Of a stretch of DNA of 37,511 bases, positions 4,678-31,402 are shown one piece after another; within the stretch, counting starts at the first letter, position 1, and each line of letters opens with the position of its first letter. Source of the stretch: Candidatus Aminicenantota bacterium. Its GTDB lineage: Bacteria > Acidobacteriota > Aminicenantia > Aminicenantales > Saccharicenantaceae. The stretch covers positions 1 to 37,511 of the forward strand of contig JADGNU010000005.1 in the NCBI GenBank assembly GCA_017883305.1. The letters run 5' to 3'. Made by a program: the position numbers and the translations under genes. The notes beneath the pieces are model-generated. The model made no database searches, was not told the origin of the DNA, and saw only the letters and a list, made by a program, of their open reading frames with translations.

Positions 4678-4733
4678 ATAATTCCTGGGACACGATCCCT
4701 TTTCCAGAGAAAAGGGTCATGTCCCGGAATTAT
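4678..4733. repeat. REP-like imperfect palindrome (56 bp)
   Basis: ATAATTCC-T-GGGACACGATCCCTTTTC-CAGA-GAAAAGGGTCATGTCCC-GGAATTAT. The arms are near-perfect reverse complements. Confidence 0.8.
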
Positions 4734-4775
4734 CCGTTATCGTCGATCGGCGAATCCAGGACTCCGTCCTCCTCC

Positions 4776-4804
4776 TTGACTTTTCCCCTGCTCCGAGGGA
4801 AAAT
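4776..4804 (+). promoter_or_regulatory. Possible ackA promoter (TTGACT-17 bp-GAAAAT) overlapping an inverted repeat TTTTCCC-N9-GGGAAAA
   Basis: -35-like TTGACT at 4776-4781. Inverted repeat at 4781-4803 spans the spacer. Confidence 0.4.
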
Positions 4805-4865
4805 GGGGCTTAAAAAATCGGCCCTTTCTCCGGCCGATGGACCAAGAAATCTTAAGGAGTCATCG

Positions 4866-6212
4866 ATGATCATCCTGTCCTTGAACTGCGGCAGTTCGTC
4901 TGCTAAATATCGCCTCTATGACTACGATAAGAAGGAAACGCTGGCCACGGGCATCGTCGAGCGGGTCGGCATCGGCAAGAGCTACATCCAGCAGTCCGGC
5001 CTCGGCCGCGAGCCGATCAAATTCGACCACGAGTGCGCCAACCACAGGGAGGCCATCAAGCTCATCATCGACACCCTTCTCGACCCCAAGATCGGCGTCA
5101 TGGACGACCTGAAAGAGATTTCGGCCGTTGGCCATCGCGTCGTCCACGGCGGCGAGAAGTTCACGAAATCGGTCCAGATCACCCCCGAGACCCTGGCGAC
5201 GTTCAAGAGCCTCTACGGTCTGGCCCCCCTCCACAACCCGCCGAACGTCCTGGGCATCGAGGCGGCCATGGACGTCCTGCCGGACGTTCCGCACGTCGCC
5301 ATCATGGACACGGCCTGGCATCAGACGATGCCGGCAAGCTCTTACATGTACGCCCTGCCCTACGACTGGTACGAGAAGTACGGCGTCCGCCGCTACGGCT
5401 TCCACGGGACCTCGTTCCTTTACGTGGCCAAGCGGGCCGCCCTGCTCCTCGGCAAGGACCCCTTCGCGTGCAATCTCGTCTGCCTCCACATCGGCAACGG
5501 CGTTTCGGCCAATGCCATCAAGAACGGCGTCTCCTACGACACCAGCATGGGCCTGACCCCCCTCGAGGGCCTGGTCATGGGTACGCGGGCGGGCGACCAC
5601 GACGCGGCCATCGACCTCATGGTCATGGAGAAGGAAGGGATCGCCCCGGGCAAGATGAGCGATATCCTCAACAAGAAATCGGGCCTGCTTGGGATCACCG
5701 GCAAGTACACCGACCGCCGCGACGTCCAGAAGGCCGCCGAGGCGGGCGACGCCCGGGCCAAGCTGGCCATCGAGGTCGAGTCCTACCGGATCAAGAAGTA
5801 CATCGGGGCCTATTCGGCGGCCATCGGCGGCGCGGACGCCATCGTTTTCACGGCCGGCGTCGGCGAGATGTCCGACCTCATCCGGGAGAAGTCGTGCGAG
5901 GGACTGGAATTCCTGGGCATCAAGCTGGACAAGGCCAAGAACAAGCTGGCCAGGACCCGCAACGCCGAGACCGAGATCTCGGCGGCCGACTCCAAGGTCA
6001 AGATCTTCGTCATCCCGACCGACGAGGAGCGGGTCAACATCGAGGACGTCATCGCCATCCTCGAGGGCACGTACGACGAGCACACCCACTTCACCTACCG
6101 CTTCCAGTCGCCGGAATACGTCAACTCGCAGCGCGAGCAGGATTTCGTCAAGGAGTGCGAGGCCAAGCCCGGGCTCAAGGCGATCCAGGTCAAGCCCAAG
6201 ACTCGCTCATAA
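4866..6212 (+). CDS. ackA: Acetate kinase
   Basis: MIILSLNCGSSSAKYRLYDY, VGHRVVHGGEKF, YGFHGTSFLYVAKRAA, CLHIGNGVSANAI, GVSYDTSMGLTPLEGLVMGTRAGDHD. Start assigned by Shine-Dalgarno AAGGAG just upstream of 4866, not the ORF-track start at 4719. Confidence 0.96.
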   Translation: MIILSLNCGSSSAKYRLYDYDKKETLATGIVERVGIGKSYIQQSGLGREPIKFDHECANHREAIKLIIDTLLDPKIGVMDDLKEISAVGHRVVHGGEKFTKSVQITPETLATFKSLYGLAPLHNPPNVLGIEAAMDVLPDVPHVAIMDTAWHQTMPASSYMYALPYDWYEKYGVRRYGFHGTSFLYVAKRAALLLGKDPFACNLVCLHIGNGVSANAIKNGVSYDTSMGLTPLEGLVMGTRAGDHDAAIDLMVMEKEGIAPGKMSDILNKKSGLLGITGKYTDRRDVQKAAEAGDARAKLAIEVESYRIKKYIGAYSAAIGGADAIVFTAGVGEMSDLIREKSCEGLEFLGIKLDKAKNKLARTRNAETEISAADSKVKIFVIPTDEERVNIEDVIAILEGTYDEHTHFTYRFQSPEYVNSQREQDFVKECEAKPGLKAIQVKPKTRS

Positions 6213-6280: not shown

Positions 6281-7381
6281 CTATTTCCAATCAGAGATGA
6301 TGGCCAGGATGAGGTTCGTCAGGGCCTCGAGGTCGCGGCGATCGATCTTCTCGATGAGCGAGTGGGCGTAGGAGCCGGGCCAGGAGAGAGGGATGTCGAT
6401 GGCGCCGCTGGCGAGGAAGACCGAGCCGTCGTTGCCGCCGCGGGAATTGCCGGACTGGATCGGGATCATGCGCCGTTTGGCGATGGCCAGGACCTTGAGG
6501 ATCTCGGGCTTGGGCGTGACGTTGCTCGAGTCGACGGCCCGGACGACCGCCCCCTTGCCGACGGGAAGAAAGCCGAAGCGCTTCGATTCGAGCGGCGAAT
6601 CGGTCGAGACGAACGTGTCGATGGCGAAGACGTAGTCCGGTTTCAGGGTTTTGGCCAGCTCCGAGGCGCCGAAAAGGCCCGTCTCTTCCTGGACATCCCA
6701 AGCGAAGGTGATCGTCCGGCCTTTGATCGTCTCGGGCCTGAGGCGCAGGGCGGCGTCGAGAAGCGCGGCGCAGCCGGCCCGGTCGTCGACGGCCCGCGTG
6801 GCCATCAACCCCGGCGCGAAATCGGTGATCGTCTTCTTCGCGGTGATGGTGTCGCCCTCGGCGACTCCGAGGGCCCGGACCTCCGCTTCGGTCGCGACGC
6901 CGAGATAGATGTCGAAGCTCTCGGCCGTGAAGGTCGTTTCCTGGGTCTCGCCTTCGGTCGGGCGCTCGTCGTATCCCGGCCGCGGCGAGACGATCCCGGC
7001 CACATCACCCCGGCTTGTGTGGATGAGGACGGGGCGGGCTTCGATCGTCTGCGGGAGGATGCCGCCGCCCGGCTTGACCCGGACGCGGCCTTCCGGGGTG
7101 ATCCGGTCGATCGTCCAGCCGAGCTCGTCCGAATGCGCGACGAACAGAATGTGAGGACGGCCCGACCCGATAGTGAACCAGACGTTGGCCATGCCATCGT
7201 GTTCGGCCTTGAGCCCGGCCGGCAGCCGTCCCTGGATGAAGGTGGACACGGGGCCCTCGTGACCCGAAACGCCGGGGACGAGGACGATCTCCCGGAGGAT
7301 GTCCCAAGCTTTGGACTGGGCGCCAGCCGAGGAGACGGAGATGAGAAGCGCCAGGATGCCGATGCCGATCCGCTTGGTCAC
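6281..7381 (-). CDS. M42-family metallopeptidase with N-terminal signal peptide (appears catalytically complete)
   Basis: Signal-like MTKRIGIGILALLISVSSAGAQS; M42 motifs HSDELG, VDDRAGC, QEETGLFGA, IDTF, GGNDGS and SYAHSLIEKIDRRDLEAL. Confidence 0.88.
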   Translation of the reverse strand: MTKRIGIGILALLISVSSAGAQSKAWDILREIVLVPGVSGHEGPVSTFIQGRLPAGLKAEHDGMANVWFTIGSGRPHILFVAHSDELGWTIDRITPEGRVRVKPGGGILPQTIEARPVLIHTSRGDVAGIVSPRPGYDERPTEGETQETTFTAESFDIYLGVATEAEVRALGVAEGDTITAKKTITDFAPGLMATRAVDDRAGCAALLDAALRLRPETIKGRTITFAWDVQEETGLFGASELAKTLKPDYVFAIDTFVSTDSPLESKRFGFLPVGKGAVVRAVDSSNVTPKPEILKVLAIAKRRMIPIQSGNSRGGNDGSVFLASGAIDIPLSWPGSYAHSLIEKIDRRDLEALTNLILAIISDWK

Positions 7382-8496
7382 TTGGCACCTCCCGGCTGGA
7401 TGAATCGTTCAAGGATATCGCACAAGGCCTCGAGGTCTTTGAGAGTGACGACCTCGGACGGCGTATTGAGGAAACGCACCGGCAGAGCCAGCGTCACGAC
7501 CTCCGCGGGCGGGCTGGCGAACGGCAGCGCCATCGGCGAATCGGGCGCCGTCAGGAACTGGAGGGGTGCCCCGGCGGCAGCGGCCGCCGCCTCGACCGCC
7601 CGTCGCAGCGCGGATGATTCGTCCTTGGCTTGGACAAGGACCGGACCCCCGCCGGGGAAGGGGAAGCCATCCCCCTTGCCCGCGGCGATGACGTCGACGA
7701 TGATCGTCCTTTTCGGCTGCCACTTGGATCTGGCCCGCGCGGCGCCGATGGCCGGGCGCGCGCCCCGGCCGCGGGCCCCGAACTTCGTCTGGGCCGCCCA
7801 GGCCAGGACGGTCTCCTCGCCGACGGTCTTTCCGGTCAGGGCCTCGAGCACGGAAACGAGGCCGGCCGCGGCGGCCTTCACTCCGAGCGACGGCCCGGCC
7901 CACTGGTCACCGGCCAGCTCGGTCAGAAGGGCCGGATAGGTGACCGGGTCCAGAAGCTCGACGCCCCTGGCCCGGGCTTCCTTCTCGGACCTGGCGCCGA
8001 TATCCACGTAGGCGATCTCCAGGGAGAATCCTTCGACCTGGGTCCTGCGCCGCTCCTGGGTGAGAAGATGGATCGCGGGTTGCGAGACGACGCCCTGGAC
8101 CGGTCCTTTCGCCGTCGAGATGACGACCGGCTGGCCGAGGAGGAAGGCGTCGAACCGGGCGTGGGGCGGCGGCACGGGCCGGTCGAGGGTCAGGTAGCCT
8201 TCAGGCGTGATGCCGCTGACCATGTGCCCGTAGCCGTCGAGGGCTCCGAGGATGAGCGTCGGCCCTGGCGTGCCGCCGAGCCGGACGGCGATCGTGCCCA
8301 ATCCCGCCTCTTCGACCGTAGCGCCCTTGGGCAGGAGCGCCCGGATCTTCGCCGCGAGCATCTCCTCGTTCCCCGTCGTCGACGGCACTGCGAAAAGCTC
8401 TTTGGTTACGGACTTGAGGTCCGCCCCTCCGGCCGCCGCGGCGATGCACACTAGTGCCGCTGCCAATCCCAGGGTTTTCGTCATGCGATGAGCCAT
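7378..8496 (-). CDS. Degenerate M42-like paralog with signal peptide, probable pseudoenzyme
   Basis: Overall M42 layout is retained (VPSTTGNEEMLAAKIRALLP, GITPEG, RFLNTPSEVVTLKDLEAL), but the ligand/catalytic positions read ALDGYG, AAQTKFG and FLNTPSE. Overlaps the downstream M42 gene by 4 bp. Strong SD AAGGAGGT upstream. Confidence 0.8.
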   Translation of the reverse strand: MAHRMTKTLGLAAALVCIAAAAGGADLKSVTKELFAVPSTTGNEEMLAAKIRALLPKGATVEEAGLGTIAVRLGGTPGPTLILGALDGYGHMVSGITPEGYLTLDRPVPPPHARFDAFLLGQPVVISTAKGPVQGVVSQPAIHLLTQERRRTQVEGFSLEIAYVDIGARSEKEARARGVELLDPVTYPALLTELAGDQWAGPSLGVKAAAAGLVSVLEALTGKTVGEETVLAWAAQTKFGARGRGARPAIGAARARSKWQPKRTIIVDVIAAGKGDGFPFPGGGPVLVQAKDESSALRRAVEAAAAAAGAPLQFLTAPDSPMALPFASPPAEVVTLALPVRFLNTPSEVVTLKDLEALCDILERFIQPGGAK

Positions 8497-8534: not shown

Positions 8535-8562
8535 ATTATCATAGCGCGCGACTTATCGTCAA
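8535..8562 (-). promoter_or_regulatory. Putative promoter of the M42 pair: TTGACG-16 bp-GATAAT
   Basis: Reverse complement reads TTGACG ATAAGTCGCGCGCTAT GATAAT upstream of 8496. Confidence 0.5.
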
Positions 8563-9658: not shown

Positions 9659-10105
9659 TCAGGCGTCGAGGCCAACTGCGGCCAGGAACTGCCCCAGGCG
9701 CCGCTCGATCTTGAGCGCCGTTTCCTTGTAAACCTGATAATCCGATCCGAGGGGATCCTCGATATCCCAGCCGTAGAGGATGGATTCCGGAATTCCCCAG
9801 ATATCGCGGAGATGGTGGTAGATGGAGGGGTCCAGGGCGATGACATAATCGAAGCTCCCGAGGTCGTATGTCCCGACCGGCCGGGCGATATGGGAGGAGA
9901 TATCGATCTTGTAGACGAGCTTCATGACCAGGGCAGCCTCCTCCGTGGCCGGGCCGCCGGTCGCGCCGATCCCGGCGCTCGCGACCTCGGCTGCCGGGCC
10001 GAGGCGCTGGCGGGCGATGGCCTCCGCCATCGGGCTGCGGCAGATGTTCCCATAGCAGACGAAGAGCAGGCGCTTCTTGGGCTTTTTCATCGGGACGGCC
10101 GTCAA
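9659..10105 (-). CDS. Low-molecular-weight protein tyrosine phosphatase
   Basis: P-loop VCYGNICRSPMAEAI (C-x5-R-S) and distal WDIEDPLGSD. TTG start at 10105 overlaps the kinase stop; an alternative ATG lies at 10090. Confidence 0.9.
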   Translation of the reverse strand: MTAVPMKKPKKRLLFVCYGNICRSPMAEAIARQRLGPAAEVASAGIGATGGPATEEAALVMKLVYKIDISSHIARPVGTYDLGSFDYVIALDPSIYHHLRDIWGIPESILYGWDIEDPLGSDYQVYKETALKIERRLGQFLAAVGLDA

Positions 10106-12087
10106 TTCCGCCCGGCCTGGGTGCTCTCGAGCGAGACTTCCTTGGCCTTTTCGTAGAGGAAACCGGCCAGGATATACTGCTCGGCCGCCTGGGGAACAAG
10201 ACCGTCCTTGGCCTTCTGGCGGGCGCCTTCCTCTTCCGTCGTGGCCCGCTCGTAGAGCCAGGCCTGCTTGGCGGGGGCCTGCGCGGCCTCGGCGTCCTTG
10301 CGGATCGTGCCCGTCAGCTCCCTCAGCGCGACTAGCCCCTGCTCCTCATCGGTCGCCTTGGGGCTCAGCAGATGGACCCGGTTCAGAATGTCGCACAGGA
10401 TCCGGGCGCCGGAAAAATCGTTCTTGGCGAAGGCGTCCGACGCGTCCTTTTCCTTTTCTGTGGCGATCCAGGAGAGGAGGTTCGGCCGTCCCGTCCGCGC
10501 CGGGCCGCCCATCTTCTGTTTCGTCTCCTGGAGCTCCTTGAACGCCGCTTCCGCCCGCTCCCGTTCGCTGACCTGGGAGAGGAGCTTGCGCATCTCGGAT
10601 TCGCCCCTGTCGTAGCTCCGCTTCGAGGCTTCGAGATTCCCGGCTTTCCGCTGCTTCTTTCCTTCGGTGATCCGGGCCTGGATGCTGTCGAGGAATTGAG
10701 ACACGGCGGACGCTTCGTCCGGATATTTTTCTTTGATCGCGGCCAGCGCCTTTTCGACCTCCAAGTTGTCCTTCTCGGCCATGAACTTGGTCGGGTCCTT
10801 TATGAACGGGGCGAGATAACCCAGGATGCCCGAGCCCGCGCCCCGGCCGAGCGATGGCGCCGCCTCGTCCTTTTCGCCCGGGGGTTGCGGGGCCGGCGGC
10901 AGGTTGGTCGTGGCATCGGCGCCGGAATCGGCCTCGGCCCTCCTGACGACTTTGATCCGGGGTTCCCCGGCCGGCCCGCCTTGTCCGCCCCTATCGAGGA
11001 GCGAGACGACGCCGACGATGACCAGGGCGCCGACGATGAGGGCCGGGACGAGGATCCTCCTGAGCCTGAATTTGACCGTGATCTCGCGGTCCGTGAGGGG
11101 CTTCGTCCGCGCCGTGACCTGCCGGGTCATGGGCAGGCCCTGTTCGACGGCAATCAGGTCCTCGAGGACCGCGGCCGCGGATTGGTAACGGTCGTCCCGC
11201 GATTTGGCCAGGCACTTCAGGATGATCCGGCTCAGGCCGGCGGAGATCTGGGAGTTGATCGTCTGCGGATCGGCGGGGGGCTCGCTCCGGTGCTTGAGGA
11301 CGATGCTGAGCGGCGTCGTGCCCTCGAAGGGGACGCGGCCCGTGACCATCTCGAACAGGATGGCCCCCAGGGCGTAGATGTCGACCCGGTGATCGATGTC
11401 GCGGCCTTCGGCCTGTTCCGGCGCCATGTATTCCGGCGTCCCGATGATGACCCCGGTGCCGGTGACGCCGCGGGTGTGGAGGGACCGGGCGATGCCGAAG
11501 TCCATGATCTTGGCGTTGCCGTCCTTGTCGATCATGACGTTCTGGGGCTTGAGGTCGCGATGGACGACCCCGAGACGATGGGCCTCGGCCAAGCCCTCGG
11601 CGATCTGCTTGGCCAACCCGACGGCCTTGGCCTCGTTGAGGTGTCCCGACCGGCGGATGAAGCTCTTGAGGTCCTCGCCGGGGACGTATTCCATGGAGAT
11701 GTAGATCGAGAGCCATTCCTCGCCGAGGTCGTACATCCGGCAGACGTGACGGTGGGCGACCTGGCGGGCCAGCTTGATCTCGTTGCGGAAGCGCTCGATG
11801 ACCTCGGGGTCGGAGGCGATCTCGGGCTTGAGGAGCTTGAGGGCCACGACCTCCCGGATCTTGCTGTCGTAGGCCTTGTAGACGGTGCCCATGCCGCCCT
11901 GACCGATCTCTTCGATGATCTCGAAGCGGCGGGCGAATGTCGTGCCGCGCTCGAGGCCCTTCGAGGGGGTCTGGAAAGTGGCCGTCCCCGTCGGCAGGGT
12001 CTCGCCCGAGCCGGGGAGCTCCCGGCCACAGCGGCCGCAGAAACGGGTCCCCTCAGGATTGTCGTTCAGGCAGCGCGGGCATTTCAT
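10102..12087 (-). CDS. Transmembrane Ser/Thr protein kinase with N-terminal zinc ribbon
   Basis: CPRCLNDNPEGTRFCGRCGREL zinc ribbon; GQGGMGTVYKAYD, VVHRDLKPQNVMID, IMDFGIAR and GTPEYMAPEQ kinase motifs; TM segment ILVPALIVGALVIVGVVSLL; coiled/helical C-terminal region. Confidence 0.96.
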   Translation of the reverse strand: MKCPRCLNDNPEGTRFCGRCGRELPGSGETLPTGTATFQTPSKGLERGTTFARRFEIIEEIGQGGMGTVYKAYDSKIREVVALKLLKPEIASDPEVIERFRNEIKLARQVAHRHVCRMYDLGEEWLSIYISMEYVPGEDLKSFIRRSGHLNEAKAVGLAKQIAEGLAEAHRLGVVHRDLKPQNVMIDKDGNAKIMDFGIARSLHTRGVTGTGVIIGTPEYMAPEQAEGRDIDHRVDIYALGAILFEMVTGRVPFEGTTPLSIVLKHRSEPPADPQTINSQISAGLSRIILKCLAKSRDDRYQSAAAVLEDLIAVEQGLPMTRQVTARTKPLTDREITVKFRLRRILVPALIVGALVIVGVVSLLDRGGQGGPAGEPRIKVVRRAEADSGADATTNLPPAPQPPGEKDEAAPSLGRGAGSGILGYLAPFIKDPTKFMAEKDNLEVEKALAAIKEKYPDEASAVSQFLDSIQARITEGKKQRKAGNLEASKRSYDRGESEMRKLLSQVSERERAEAAFKELQETKQKMGGPARTGRPNLLSWIATEKEKDASDAFAKNDFSGARILCDILNRVHLLSPKATDEEQGLVALRELTGTIRKDAEAAQAPAKQAWLYERATTEEEGARQKAKDGLVPQAAEQYILAGFLYEKAKEVSLESTQAGRN

Positions 12088-16315: not shown

Positions 16316-16345
16316 GGGGGCCTCCTCTCGTGATGATTCCCCGGT

Positions 16346-16375
16346 ATCTTAACGGAAGGCTTCGGGCCAGGTCAA
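16346..16375 (-). promoter_or_regulatory. Putative promoter for nucleotidyltransferase/GH2 pair: TTGACC-18 bp-TAAGAT
   Basis: Reverse complement reads TTGACC TGGCCCGAAGCCTTCCGT TAAGAT. Confidence 0.55.
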
Positions 16376-16381
16376 ACCAAC

Positions 16382-16410
16382 TTTACTTGTCTACTTCCAT
16401 CCTATATTAT
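16382..16410 (+). promoter_or_regulatory. Putative promoter for the hslVU gene run: TTTACT-17 bp-TATTAT
   Basis: TTTACT at 16382-16387 and TATTAT at 16405-16410, followed by SD GAGGAG and ATG at 16435. Confidence 0.5.
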
Positions 16411-16434
16411 TGTTTTCTTGGCAGAGGAGAACCC

Positions 16435-16962
16435 ATGATCCGTTCGACGACCGTCATCTGCGTCCGCCATAAGGGGAAAACGGCCATGGCCGCCGACGGC
16501 CAGGTGAGCATGGGCCAGACCGTTCTCAAGAAGACCGCCCAGAAGATCCGCCGCCTGGGCAAGGGCGACGTCCTGGCCGGGTTCGCCGGGTCCACCTCGG
16601 ACGCCTTCGCGCTATTCACTCGTTTCGAGGCCAAGCTCGAGGAATATCGGGGCAATCTCTCCCGGGCGGCGATCGAGCTGGCCAAGGACTGGCGCATGGA
16701 AAAGGCCCTCCGTCAGCTCGACGCCCTGCTCATCGTGGCCAACACAGAGACGTCCCTGCTCATCTCGGGCACCGGCGATGTCGTCGAGCCGGATGACGGC
16801 ATCCTGGCCATCGGGTCCGGCGGGTCCTTCGCCCTGGCCGCGGCCCGGGCCCTGATCAAGCATACCGACCTCGACGGGCGGACCATCGCCGAGGAAGCTC
16901 TCAAGATCGCCGCCGACATCTGTGTCTACACGAACGCCGAGATCACCGTCGAGGAGCTCTGA
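16435..16962 (+). CDS. hslV: ATP-dependent protease subunit HslV
   Basis: [29 protein letters not shown]...RKIRRL-like region, [46 protein letters not shown]. Start assigned at ATG 16435. Confidence 0.97.
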
Positions 16963-18357
16963 ATGCCGATCGTCCTGCCCGAATCGCTGGAAAAACCCGC
17001 CCCCGAAGCTCCCGAGGCCGAGCTCACGCCGCAGGAGATCGTCGCCGAGCTCGACAAGTACATCATCGGCCAGAAGGCGGCCAAGAAGGCCGTAGCCATC
17101 GCCTTGCGCAACCGCTACCGCCGGCGCAAGCTCCCGCCCGCTCTCGCCGACGAGATCGCGCCCAAGAACATCCTCATGATCGGCCCGACAGGCGTCGGCA
17201 AGACCGAGATCTCGCGGCGCCTGGCCAAGCTGACCTACTCGCCCTTCCTCAAGATCGAGGCCAGCAAGTTCACCGAGGTCGGCTACGTCGGGCGCGACGT
17301 CGAGTCCATGATCCGCGACCTCGTCCGGATCTCCGTGGACATGGTCAAGCAGGAGAAGATCGCCGAGATCGAGGGCAAGGCCCGGGCTGTCGTGGAGGAG
17401 AGGCTGCTCGACATCCTCCTGCCGCCGGCGAAGAAGCGCGACGAGCCGTCCGGCGAGACCGAGGCGGAGGCGACGCCGAGCGATACCCGCGAGAAGCTGC
17501 GGGCCCAGCTCCGCCTGGGGCTTCTCGAAGATCGAACGGTCGAACTGGAGGTCAAGGAGCGGACGACGCCGCCCCTCGAAGTCGTTTCCAACTCCGGGGT
17601 CGAGGAGATCGGCTTCCAGATCCAGGAGTTTCTGCCCGGCTTCCTCGGCGGCCGGACCAAGCGCCGGCGGATGAAGGTCAAGGAGGCGCGCGAGCTCATC
17701 CTCGAGGAGGAAGAAAAGCGCCTCGTCGACATGGACCAGGTCTCGCGCCTGGCCATCGAGCGGGTCGAACAGTCCGGCATCATCTTCCTCGACGAGGTCG
17801 ATAAGATCGCCGGCCGCGAGTCCGGCCGCGGGCCCGATGTCAGCCGCGAAGGCGTCCAACGCGACCTCCTGCCGATCATCGAGGGCACGACCGTCAACAC
17901 GCGGTTCGGGCTGGTCCGGACCGACCACATCCTGTTCATCGGCGCCGGGGCCTTCCACGTCTCCAAGCCCTCCGATCTCATTCCCGAGCTCCAGGGGCGC
18001 TTCCCCATCCGGGTCGAGCTTACGCCCCTCAGCAAGGACGATTTCGTGCGCATCCTGACCGAGCCGGAGAACGCCCTCATCCGCCAGTACGAGGCCCTCA
18101 TGGGCACGGAGGGTGTGACCGTCGCCTTCACCCCGGACGCCGTCGATGAGATCGCCGACATCGCCGAGAAGGTCAACGCCGACGCCGAGAACATCGGCGC
18201 CCGCCGCCTCCACACCGTCGTGGAAAAGGTCATGGAGGACATCAGCTTCGCCGCCCCGAACATCGCGCTCAAGTCGATCCGCATCGACCGCGGTTATGTC
18301 CAAGACCATCTCAAAGACATCCTCGTCAGCCAGGACCTGCGGCGTTTCATCCTGTGA
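16963..18357 (+). CDS. hslU: ATP-dependent protease ATPase subunit HslU
   Basis: [94 protein letters not shown]-terminal DLRRFIL. Confidence 0.98.
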
Positions 18358-28154: not shown

Positions 28155-28682
28155 AATGACCCGCGGCCCGAAGCGGACGAAGTACTCGAGGGCCGAGATG
28201 ATGGCCAGGGCGAAGACGAGCCACAGCCCGACCTTGGCCACGATGTAGAACTTCCCGAGGTACAGGGGGCCGAGCACCAGGGCCCCGATGATCCAGGATT
28301 CGCTGCCCATCTTGGCCTTGCCGAAGGCCGAAGCCGGGATGTTGACCCCCTTGGACGAGGCCATGGCCCGGAAGCCGGTTACGGCGATCTCCCGGCCGAT
28401 GATGACGATGGCCGCCCAGGCCGGGACGCGTCCGAGCTCGACGAGGCAGATGAGCGCCGAGGCGATGAGAAGCTTGTCGGCCGTCGGGTCGAGGAGTTGG
28501 CCGAGCACGGTGACCATCCCTTTCCGGCGGGCCAGCCAGCCGTCCAGCCAGTCCGTGAGCGAGGCGAAGATGAAGATGATGCAGGCGACGAGGTCGTGGC
28601 CCTGGAAGTTCGTCAGCATGACGGCGACCACGGCCGGAATGGCCAAAATCCTCGCCAAGCTCAAGTAATTGGGGATGTTCAC
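28137..28682 (-). CDS. pgsA: CDP-diacylglycerol--glycerol-3-phosphate 3-phosphatidyltransferase
   Basis: MNIPNYLSLARILAIPAVV, SLTDWLDGWLARRKGMVTVLGQLLDPTADKLL (CDP-alcohol phosphotransferase motif DG-x2-AR-x8-G-x3-D-x3-D), GREIAVTGFR. GTG start. Confidence 0.95.
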   Translation of the reverse strand: MNIPNYLSLARILAIPAVVAVMLTNFQGHDLVACIIFIFASLTDWLDGWLARRKGMVTVLGQLLDPTADKLLIASALICLVELGRVPAWAAIVIIGREIAVTGFRAMASSKGVNIPASAFGKAKMGSESWIIGALVLGPLYLGKFYIVAKVGLWLVFALAIISALEYFVRFGPRVISQQAE

Positions 28683-28721
28683 GCCCCCGAGATTACACCA
28701 CCGCCCCCAAGAGTGTCAATC

Positions 28722-28750
28722 TTGCAAAAGGGGAGGGCCGTGGGTATAGT
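28722..28750 (+). promoter_or_regulatory. Putative mutS promoter TTGCAA-17 bp-TATAGT
   Basis: TTGCAA at 28722-28727 and TATAGT at 28745-28750; ATG at 28763 with no SD. Confidence 0.5.
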
Positions 28751-28762
28751 GAACATTCGCCG

Positions 28763-31402
28763 ATGGCCAACGATACCTCTCTGACCCCGATGATGGAGCA
28801 GTATTTCCGCATCAAGGAGCTCCATCGCGACGCCCTGCTTTTCTTCCGTTTGGGCGACTTCTACGAGATGTTCTATGAAGACGCCAAGATCGCCGCGCCC
28901 ATCCTCGACATCGCCTTGACCTCGCGGCAGAAGGTGCCCATGTGCGGCGTGCCCTATCACGCCGTCAATTCGTACCTGCCCAAGCTCCTGCGGCAGGGCT
29001 TTAAAGTGGCCATGTGCGAACAGGTCGAGGACCCCAAGGCGGCCAAGGGCGTCGTCCGGCGCGAGGTCATCAAGGTCCTGACGCCAGGCACGGCCGTCGA
29101 GATCGAGCTCGAAGAGGCCAAGGAGAGCACGTACATCGCTTCGCTGGCCCTCACCGATGACGGCTGGGGCCTGGCGTTGGTCGACCTCGCGGCCGGCGAG
29201 GTCCGGACCCTCGAGGGCGCCTGGGCCGAAGCCAAGCTCCTGGCCGACGAGCTCTTCAAAGCCGCGCCGAAGGAGATCCTCTATCCCGAAGGCGCGGAGG
29301 ACGCTCTGCGACGCGTCCTCCCCCTCGACGGGTCGAACGGTGCCGCCCTGAGCCCGGCCGAAGGCTGGCTCTTCGATCCGCCCCAGGCGGCCCGGGTGGT
29401 CCTCGAACACTTCGGCGCCAAATCGCTCGCCGGCTTCGGCCTCGAGGACAAGCCTCGGGCCGTGGCCGCGGCCGGGGCCCTCATCGCCTACGTCAAGAAG
29501 GTCCGGCAGGATTCCCTGGCCCTCGTCCACCGCCTCTCGTATCTCAACGCCGCGAGTCACCTCGTCCTCGACGCGACGACTGTCCGCAACCTCGAGCTCG
29601 TCCGTAACCTCCGCGACGGCAAGCTCAAGGGCACACTCCTCGACGTCATAGATTTCACGGTCACCGCTCCGGGCGGCCGCCTGCTCCGCTCCTGGCTCCT
29701 CCGGCCCCTCCGCGATGTCACCGAGATCGCCGCCCGCCAGGACGCCGTGGCCGAGGGTCTCGGCGCGACCATCGCCCGCCGCGAGATCCGCGAGACGCTC
29801 AAGGGCGTTCACGACCTGGAACGGCTCGTTGGAAAGATCGCCCTGGCCGCGGCGCACCCGCGCGACCTCGTCGCACTCAAGCTGTCGCTCGCCCCGCTGC
29901 CGTCGATCGAGCACGAGGTCCGCGCCTTCTCGTCCGGTCCCTTCAAAGAGGTGGCCGGCCGCTGGGATAACGCCGCCGACGTCGCCGCTCTTGTCGACAC
30001 GGCCATCCTCGACGAGCCCGCCTTTCTCTTGACCGAAGGCGGCATTATCAAGGACGGCTGGAATGCCGAGCTCGACGACCTGCGCTCGGTCAGCCGCTCC
30101 GGCAAGGGCTTCATCGCCCAGCTCGAGAGCCGCGAGCGGGAGCGCACCGGCATCGGCTCGCTCAAGGTCCGCTACAACAAGGTCTTCGGCTATTACATCG
30201 AAGTGACCAAGCCCCACCTGGACCGGGTCCCGGCCGATTACATGCGCAAGCAGACGCTGGTCAACTCCGAGCGCTTCCTCACGCCGGAGCTCAAGGAGTA
30301 CGAGGAGAAGGTCCTCCACGCCGAGGAGCGCATCGGCCTCCTCGAGCACCGCCTTTTCCTCGAGGTCCTCGAGACCGTCGCCCGGGAGACCCTGCGCCTG
30401 CAGCGGATGGCCGCCGATATCGCAGCGCTCGACGTCCTCCTGGCCCTGGCCGAGTGCGCCGCTTGCCGCGGCTACGTCCGCCCGACGGTCGACGAGGGGG
30501 ACGCGATCCGCATCGAGGCCGGCCGCCATGCCGTCATCGAAACGACCCAAGCCGAGCCCTTCATCCCCAACGACCTCGAGCTCGACGCCGCCGAGAACCA
30601 GATCCTGATCATCACCGGTCCGAACATGGGCGGCAAATCGACCTTCCTGCGCCAGGCCGCGCTCATCGTCCTCCTCGGCCAGATGGGCGCCTTCGTCCCG
30701 GCCAAGTCGGCGACGATCGGCCTCGTCGACCGCATCTTCACCCGCATCGGGGCCATGGACTTCCTCAGCGTCGGGCAGTCGACGTTCATGGTCGAGATGC
30801 TGGAGACGGCCGCGATCCTCCACAACGCCACCGCCCGCAGCCTCATCCTCCTCGACGAGGTCGGCCGGGGCACGAGCACTTTCGACGGCCTGAGCATCGC
30901 CTGGGCCGTCGCCGAGCGGCTTCACGAGCGCGAGGACGTCCGTCCGAAGACGCTCTTCGCCACGCACTACCACGAGCTGACCGAGCTCGCGCTGACCCTG
31001 CCGCGGATCAAGAACTATCACGTGTCGGTCAGGGAGTGGAAGGACGAAGTCGTCTTTCTGCGCAAGATCGTCGCCGGCCCGTCCGATCGGAGCTACGGCA
31101 TCCATGTCGCCAAGCTGGCCGGAATTCCCCGGGACGTTATCGACCGGGCTAGGGAGATCCTCTTCAATCTGGAGAAACAGGAGCTCGACGAGACCGGCCT
31201 GCCGCGTCTGGCCCACCGCGGCCGCCCGTCAGGGGACCGCAATCAGCTCATGCTCTTCGCCGAGGACCGGGAATTCGCCCTCCTGCGCGAGCTCAAGGAG
31301 GAGATCGAGGGTCTCGACCTCACGTCGCTGACCCCCCTCGAAGCGTTGAATATCCTGGCCGGGCTCAAAGGCCGGACCGGGTCCGGCTCGGCCGGTCAAT
31401 AA
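28763..31402 (+). CDS. mutS: DNA mismatch repair protein MutS
   Basis: TPMMEQYFRIKELHRDALLFFRLGDFYEMFYEDA (mismatch-binding FxE motif), ITGPNMGGKSTFLRQAALIVLLGQMGAFVPA, LILLDEVGRGTSTFDGLSIAWAV, TLFATHYHELTEL. Confidence 0.98.
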   Translation: MANDTSLTPMMEQYFRIKELHRDALLFFRLGDFYEMFYEDAKIAAPILDIALTSRQKVPMCGVPYHAVNSYLPKLLRQGFKVAMCEQVEDPKAAKGVVRREVIKVLTPGTAVEIELEEAKESTYIASLALTDDGWGLALVDLAAGEVRTLEGAWAEAKLLADELFKAAPKEILYPEGAEDALRRVLPLDGSNGAALSPAEGWLFDPPQAARVVLEHFGAKSLAGFGLEDKPRAVAAAGALIAYVKKVRQDSLALVHRLSYLNAASHLVLDATTVRNLELVRNLRDGKLKGTLLDVIDFTVTAPGGRLLRSWLLRPLRDVTEIAARQDAVAEGLGATIARREIRETLKGVHDLERLVGKIALAAAHPRDLVALKLSLAPLPSIEHEVRAFSSGPFKEVAGRWDNAADVAALVDTAILDEPAFLLTEGGIIKDGWNAELDDLRSVSRSGKGFIAQLESRERERTGIGSLKVRYNKVFGYYIEVTKPHLDRVPADYMRKQTLVNSERFLTPELKEYEEKVLHAEERIGLLEHRLFLEVLETVARETLRLQRMAADIAALDVLLALAECAACRGYVRPTVDEGDAIRIEAGRHAVIETTQAEPFIPNDLELDAAENQILIITGPNMGGKSTFLRQAALIVLLGQMGAFVPAKSATIGLVDRIFTRIGAMDFLSVGQSTFMVEMLETAAILHNATARSLILLDEVGRGTSTFDGLSIAWAVAERLHEREDVRPKTLFATHYHELTELALTLPRIKNYHVSVREWKDEVVFLRKIVAGPSDRSYGIHVAKLAGIPRDVIDRAREILFNLEKQELDETGLPRLAHRGRPSGDRNQLMLFAEDREFALLRELKEEIEGLDLTSLTPLEALNILAGLKGRTGSGSAGQ

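Follow-up and report, generated by a model that had tools for sequence, protein, structure and literature searches.

Reciprocal loss of active-site residues in a conserved pair of predicted exported M42 peptidase homologues of Acidobacteriota

Two adjacent genes at positions 6281-8496 of a 37,511-nucleotide stretch of DNA from a Candidatus Aminicenantota bacterium (the whole stretch analysed, hereafter the window) encode M42 metallopeptidase homologues, one of which lacks most of the residues expected of such an enzyme. What does a peptidase homologue with a dead metal site do beside an apparently intact, likewise exported paralogue? A previous sequence-only reading of the locus suggested a structural or regulatory partner in a hetero-oligomer. 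Here we analyse the residues, distribution and descent of the pair and weigh this suggestion against other explanations.

An overlapping pair of M42 homologues

The first gene of the pair, D (7378..8496, minus strand; 372 aa), encodes a predicted exported protein that is homologous to M42 peptidases but dead at its metal site, a putative pseudopeptidase subunit, and the second, A (6281..7381, minus strand; 366 aa), a predicted exported M42 peptidase. Both products matched Pfam PF05343 (M42) above the cut-off of 23.2 bits, A with 183 and D with 79 bits, which bears out the initial assignment of both to this family; M42 was the sole fold-level family matched by either, and neither belongs to the M16 fold or carries its HxxEH motif. 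In pairwise alignment, D and A are 27% identical over 242 aligned residues. No further M42 genes were found in the source genome (G000; 2.9 Mb, ~90% complete).

The two genes overlap by 4 bp, as had been noticed before: the sequence GTGA (7378..7381, minus strand) contains the stop codon of D and the GTG start codon of A, consistent with translational coupling, and an RBS-like GGAGGT for A (7387..7392, minus strand), read directly from the sequence, lies 5 nt upstream of the GTG, within the 3' end of D. A search upstream of D yielded one sigma-70-like promoter (8535..8562, minus strand; a consensus match only, at 10 of 12 positions) versus 0.2 expected. Both N-termini resemble signal peptides, in agreement with the sequence-only reading (~25 aa in D, 8422..8496; ~22 aa in A, 7316..7381; both minus strand), the calls being made by hydropathy only, without a dedicated predictor. 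The accompanying remark that M42 enzymes are normally cytosolic needs a caveat, given that several lone, complete M42 proteins of the phylum have signal-like N-termini as well.

The neighbours of the pair are unrelated to it: one flank has genes of acetate kinase and phosphotransacetylase type, the other a divergent AI-2E-type transporter gene. A second acetate kinase family protein is encoded at 947-2014, besides that at 4719-6212. Elsewhere in the window, a gene for a Ser/Thr protein kinase with an N-terminal zinc ribbon (10102-12087) is followed and overlapped by a low-molecular-weight phosphatase gene (9659-10105), and a proteasome-type (HslV-like) gene directly precedes an AAA (HslU-like) gene (16330-18357). 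An 845-aa open frame with no Pfam match (28679-31216, minus strand) overlaps a longer frame on the opposite strand.

Active-site residues of A and D

All five metal ligands (H, D, E, D, H) and the general-base Glu are kept in A. By alignment, these are His83 of the HxD motif (7133..7135), the bridging Asp199 (6785..6787), Glu232 (general base) with Glu233 (ligand) (6683..6688), Asp255 (6617..6619) and His340 (6362..6364), all on the minus strand; Asp85, the Asp of HxD, is retained too. What A lacks is the conserved M42 loop histidine (H123 of PhTET2), the position of which is occupied by Tyr137 (6971..6973, minus strand).

In D, alignment placed Ala85 at the HxD His ligand (8242..8244), Thr237-Lys238 at the Glu-Glu pair of catalytic base and ligand (7783..7788) and Asn344 at the C-terminal His ligand (7465..7467), all on the minus strand. 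These three losses had been recognized correctly in the sequence-only reading, and the ITPEG motif on which it anchored its alignment proved a valid anchor. Its further claim that the Asp positions are kept stands for the Asp of the 'IDT' motif (Asp268) and fails for the bridging Asp, which is replaced by Gly205 (7882..7884, minus strand). The supposed equivalence of VDDRAG and GDQWAG was rejected: pairwise and family alignments both place SLGVKAA of D opposite AVDDRAG of A, and the bridging Asp is therefore lost in D. Within the window's order, this column is Gly or Ser in 31 of 31 D rows.

Three further positions of D, also assigned by alignment and located on the minus strand, have been retained. 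Asp87, the HxD Asp (8236..8238), is invariant in all D despite the lost metal site; His143 (8068..8070) is the conserved M42 loop histidine, equivalent to PhTET2 H123; and Arg242 (7771..7773) corresponds to an Arg kept in 17 of 17 lone M42 proteins and mostly in D, and lost in most A (Phe237 in the A of the window). Judged by its residues, D is an M42 homologue, not an M42 peptidase. Its fold agrees with this assignment to the family: in an AlphaFold2 model (pLDDT 69.5, pTM 0.72), the top PDB matches were all M42 structures (TM ~0.67-0.72). The model of A was poorer (pLDDT 60.5); both are monomers of moderate quality built from 10-row alignments and were used for fold identity only.

Distribution, gene order and fusions

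Of the 94 genomes searched in the order, 30 from four families carry D, and G046 carries a fused form in addition. Each of the 30 has A, or at least its start, as the next gene downstream on the strand of D, at a spacing of -4 bp in 19 pairs, -1 in 2 and 2-38 bp in the remainder; these pairs include two A genes cut by contig ends and one D (G012) split across two contigs. No D-A pair was detected in the class outside the window's order at E < 1e-10. The pair reappears in other families of the phylum: in an even draw of 396 Acidobacteriota genomes, a tandem pair was present in ~10 genomes of these families, and a single-chain D-A fusion in ~16, to which G046 is to be added. The fused frames (~700-800 aa, one of them split over two contigs) have D as the N-terminus and A as the C-terminus, Pfam detects two M42 stretches in them, and all chains complete at the N-terminus begin with one signal-like segment.

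The survey of homologous loci that had been proposed for this locus thus found the intact-plus-degenerate gene order to recur in order and phylum, and none of the homologous D compared carries all ligands. The ligand losses are not a matter of chance, because they recur in all D of the order and in D relatives across the phylum. The D-A pair is an ancient module across Acidobacteriota, the phylum that the in-depth search covered. Viral contigs searched for relatives contained none, and a plasmid search returned only four partial, ordinary M42-like matches.

Some loci depart from the common arrangement. In two genomes of one genus (L151 and L155, from G324 and G435), the order is reversed, with A followed by D, the genes still being adjacent. 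The fused chain of G046, a member of the window's own family (L070:6464-8548), has halves that group with fusions from distant families, which suggests horizontal transfer. Remnants of the pair were also seen (L191:2667-3196 in G081, L190 in G021 and L189 in G023); in G081, residues 1-59 of D adjoin C-terminal fragments of A. In these remnant loci, the decay of D seems to go along with that of A.

Descent and selection

In a tree of 104 rows (IQ-TREE), calculated after removal of nine functional columns, the 45 D domains group in a single clade, as do the 45 A domains, each with support of 100/99, and by this phylogeny D and A arose by one duplication. A lone, secreted-looking M42 protein of G207 (L157:1498-3111), which has all ligands and the loop His, joins at the base of D plus A; from its residues and placement, it would be a living representative of an unduplicated-like state. 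The label fused or tandem changes 5 times on the D side of the tree and 3 times on the A side, and fusion or fission has therefore happened several times.

The least degenerate tandem D are those of G294 and G258 (L145, L147), in which HxD and the DDR Asp are intact, the Glu-Glu pair has become Gln-Val or Gln-Leu, and the last His has become Gly, which points to an early loss of the catalytic Glu pair and the last His from D. The fused D of one genus (L160, L164) keep both His ligands and the base Glu, with the bridging Asp changed to Ala and the second Glu to Leu, and seem from their residues to be another, different intermediate state.

Within the genus, dN/dS of the mature part (Nei-Gojobori) has a median of 0.28 in D, with a range of 0.20-0.39, and a median of 0.17 in A, with values of up to 0.31. 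D is therefore maintained under purifying selection and is not decaying, although it evolves ~1.6-1.9 times faster than A. Together with the open frames, this settles the concern, raised with the sequence-only reading, that the second paralogue might be degenerating; D as a pseudogene is ruled out by dN/dS and distribution. The distances of D and A correlate (mirror-tree r = 0.89), a value that is expected from vertical inheritance alone and provides no independent sign of contact.

Complementary losses in D and A

The loop His is present in 56 of 56 D and in 17 of 17 lone M42 proteins, versus 2 of 56 A, whereas A has the full set of metal ligands and the catalytic Glu, and no D has this set intact. 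An unselected test returned the same division: lone M42 proteins have 38 invariant alignment columns, of which D alone has lost 8 and A alone 2, with none lost from both. The D-only losses are metal and active-site columns plus two Gly (positions His85, Gly113, Gly182, Asp205, Glu237, Glu238, Asp322 and His344), and the A-only losses are the loop His and the Arg after the Glu-Glu motif. Because of the monophyly of both D and A, the 56 pairs amount to only a few independent events; a fair count is about one loss of the His in A, with progressive decay in D.

Entropy is zero at the loop His column of D, the median column having 2.45 bits; the former ligand columns of D, the HxD Asp excepted, reach 1.8-3.1 bits and vary like the remaining protein. 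In A, Tyr is the commonest replacement at the loop column (43 of 56 rows), some fused A have Ala, Phe or Pro there, and several other A domains have a displaced His elsewhere in the loop. The two A with His at this column are fused domains from one genus (L168, L171).

M42 enzymes have a conserved Pro-Pro-His in a long, poorly ordered loop. In human DNPEP, an M18 enzyme, His170 of the opposing subunit completes the active site and contacts the bound ligand, the H170F variant is inactive, and the authors proposed an equivalent role of the His for M42 (PMC3472314). In crystal structures of M42 enzymes, the loop is disordered, with His-to-metal distances from 4 to >20 Å (PMC8993905). PhTET2 H123 mutants that were assayed keep some activity, and A alone might therefore have residual activity.

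A predicted heterodimer with one working site

The reading we favour, and consider probable, is that D and A are subunits of one exported M42-type aminopeptidase, an obligate heterodimer in which the loop His of D acts in trans at the metal centre of A. A complete secreted M42 gene would have undergone a single duplication, after which each copy would have lost the half of the active site that the other kept: A would retain the two-metal centre and the catalytic Glu, its loop His having given way to Tyr, and D, without a metal centre, would retain the loop residue His143 and also Arg242. In the D-A dimer, the loop of D would cross over and complete the active site of A; the own loop of A would face the dead pocket of D, where no His is needed, so that each dimer would have one working site.

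For a protein lacking metals, a His that works at a metal site would be of no benefit to itself; yet the loop His has never been lost from D, which has no metals, and has been lost from A, which has them, and the simplest reading is that the loop of D serves the site of A. Reciprocal loss, gene overlap, signal sequences on both proteins and natural fusions together support an obligate exported D-A heterodimer with a single composite site. Physical dimerization, catalysis in trans, export of the folded pair and aminopeptidase activity on peptides are what we infer from these sequence patterns, and for the trans role of the loop His we lean by analogy on M18, where it is established, and on the proposal made for M42.

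An exported inactive partner in a hetero-oligomer, as envisaged at the outset, is likewise supported by the conserved gene order and the fusions, from which the association of D with A would follow. If D contributed no catalytic residue and served assembly, export or allosteric control as a structural or regulatory pseudoenzyme subunit, with the His kept for loop structure, the linkage and the fusions would look the same, and inactive partners are common among pseudopeptidases (PMC11266112); the MPP alpha named in that review also contributes residues. Such a role leaves unexplained why the His is lost in A only (54 of 56) and retained in the metal-free D (56 of 56), and we regard it as unlikely. 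As D alone keeps, and A alone has lost, a loop His predicted to act in trans, D is more likely a catalytic partner than a merely structural or regulatory one.

Alternatively, D might have acquired a function of its own, either different catalysis or peptide binding in a remodelled pocket (Asp87, Lys207, Thr237, Lys238), and adjoin A only because both act on peptides. Across the window's order, the replacements are indeed conserved, with Lys at the Arg position in 30 of 31 rows, Thr or Ser at the base Glu in 29 of 31, Lys or Arg at the ligand Glu in 27 of 31 and the HxD Asp in 30 of 30. A conserved new catalytic set holds within this order only: in other families, the pocket of D varies freely and these replacements are not maintained, only Asp87 being universal. 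The fusions also tie D to A, which leaves a new function of D quite improbable.

Could A be an active aminopeptidase by itself, with the loop Tyr in place of His and the two proteins forming separate homo-oligomers? Tyr, the commonest replacement (43 of 56), could hydrogen-bond substrate; in some fused A, however, the residue is Ala, Phe or Pro, and neither the conservation of D, its invariant His nor the D-A fusions would be explained, so that the chance of this being correct seems very slim. That D is a degenerating duplicate which has survived beside A by chance is scarcely credible: it evolves faster than A (~1.6-1.9x) and has lost catalytic residues, but its dN/dS within the genus (0.20-0.39), open frames in 30 genomes of the order, invariant non-catalytic positions and fusion with A all speak against decay, and true remnants occur in few genomes, where A has decayed too (G081, G021).

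Comparison with known systems

The known M42 TETs (PhTET1/2/3, TmPep1050, SpPepA, MJ0555) resemble A over its length, with metal ligands and catalytic Glu, and D in fold and in the PPH-type loop His. They are, however, cytosolic and homodimer-based, with complete subunits, whereas here the halves of the site lie on two predicted exported paralogues. Two M42 paralogues in one assembly have a precedent in the PhTET2-PhTET3 hetero-dodecamer (PMC4220976), which is composed of homodimers of two active enzymes and has no inactive subunit, fusion or tandem overlapping gene pair. The closest M42 heterodimer precedent is the crosslinking-supported dimer of the paralogues YtoP and YsdC of Bacillus subtilis (PMC10090944; PDB 9a5r), the account of which, in the parts available to us, does not call one paralogue active and the other inactive. 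Hetero-TETs in M42, and active/inactive pairs and fusions in M16, are thus already known. Neither M42 nor M18 figures in a review devoted to inactive metallopeptidase homologues (PMC11266112), and our full-text literature search found no paper on an M42 pseudopeptidase and no report of an M42 split-site pair.

On balance, we lean towards regarding the D-A pairs and fusions as a new M42 class across Acidobacteriota, the first that we could find in clan MH, in which a single active site would be divided between two homologous polypeptides or fused halves, a natural split site produced by reciprocal degeneration after one duplication. If so, Pfam-level annotation counts as two M42 peptidases what would be a pair with neither member predicted to be a complete enzyme, and the pair would provide natural evidence for trans action of the M42 loop histidine, which is disordered in crystals. 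The natural D-A fusion is a form usable for structural work, and the lone M42 protein of G207 (L157) a good control enzyme.

Completion of the site by a loop His of the opposing subunit, as proposed for D-A, is known from DNPEP of M18 (PMC3472314), a symmetric homodimer in which each subunit gives and receives, unlike the proposed D-A dimer. A parallel in working is found in M16 (MPP alpha/beta, SPH2681/SPH2682, TTHA1264/1265 and the single-chain M16A/C), with active and inactive homologous halves encoded by neighbouring genes or in one chain, where completion of the active site falls to the inactive half (PMC12731061). In the manner of M16B, D and A are homologous active and inactive halves encoded together, and form a single chain in some taxa; fold and clan are unrelated, so that D and A would work alike without being members. 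M42 would then have gained, independently of M16, an obligate active-plus-inactive heterodimer, the starting point being a dimer whose subunits already shared a site and then lost complementary parts of it.
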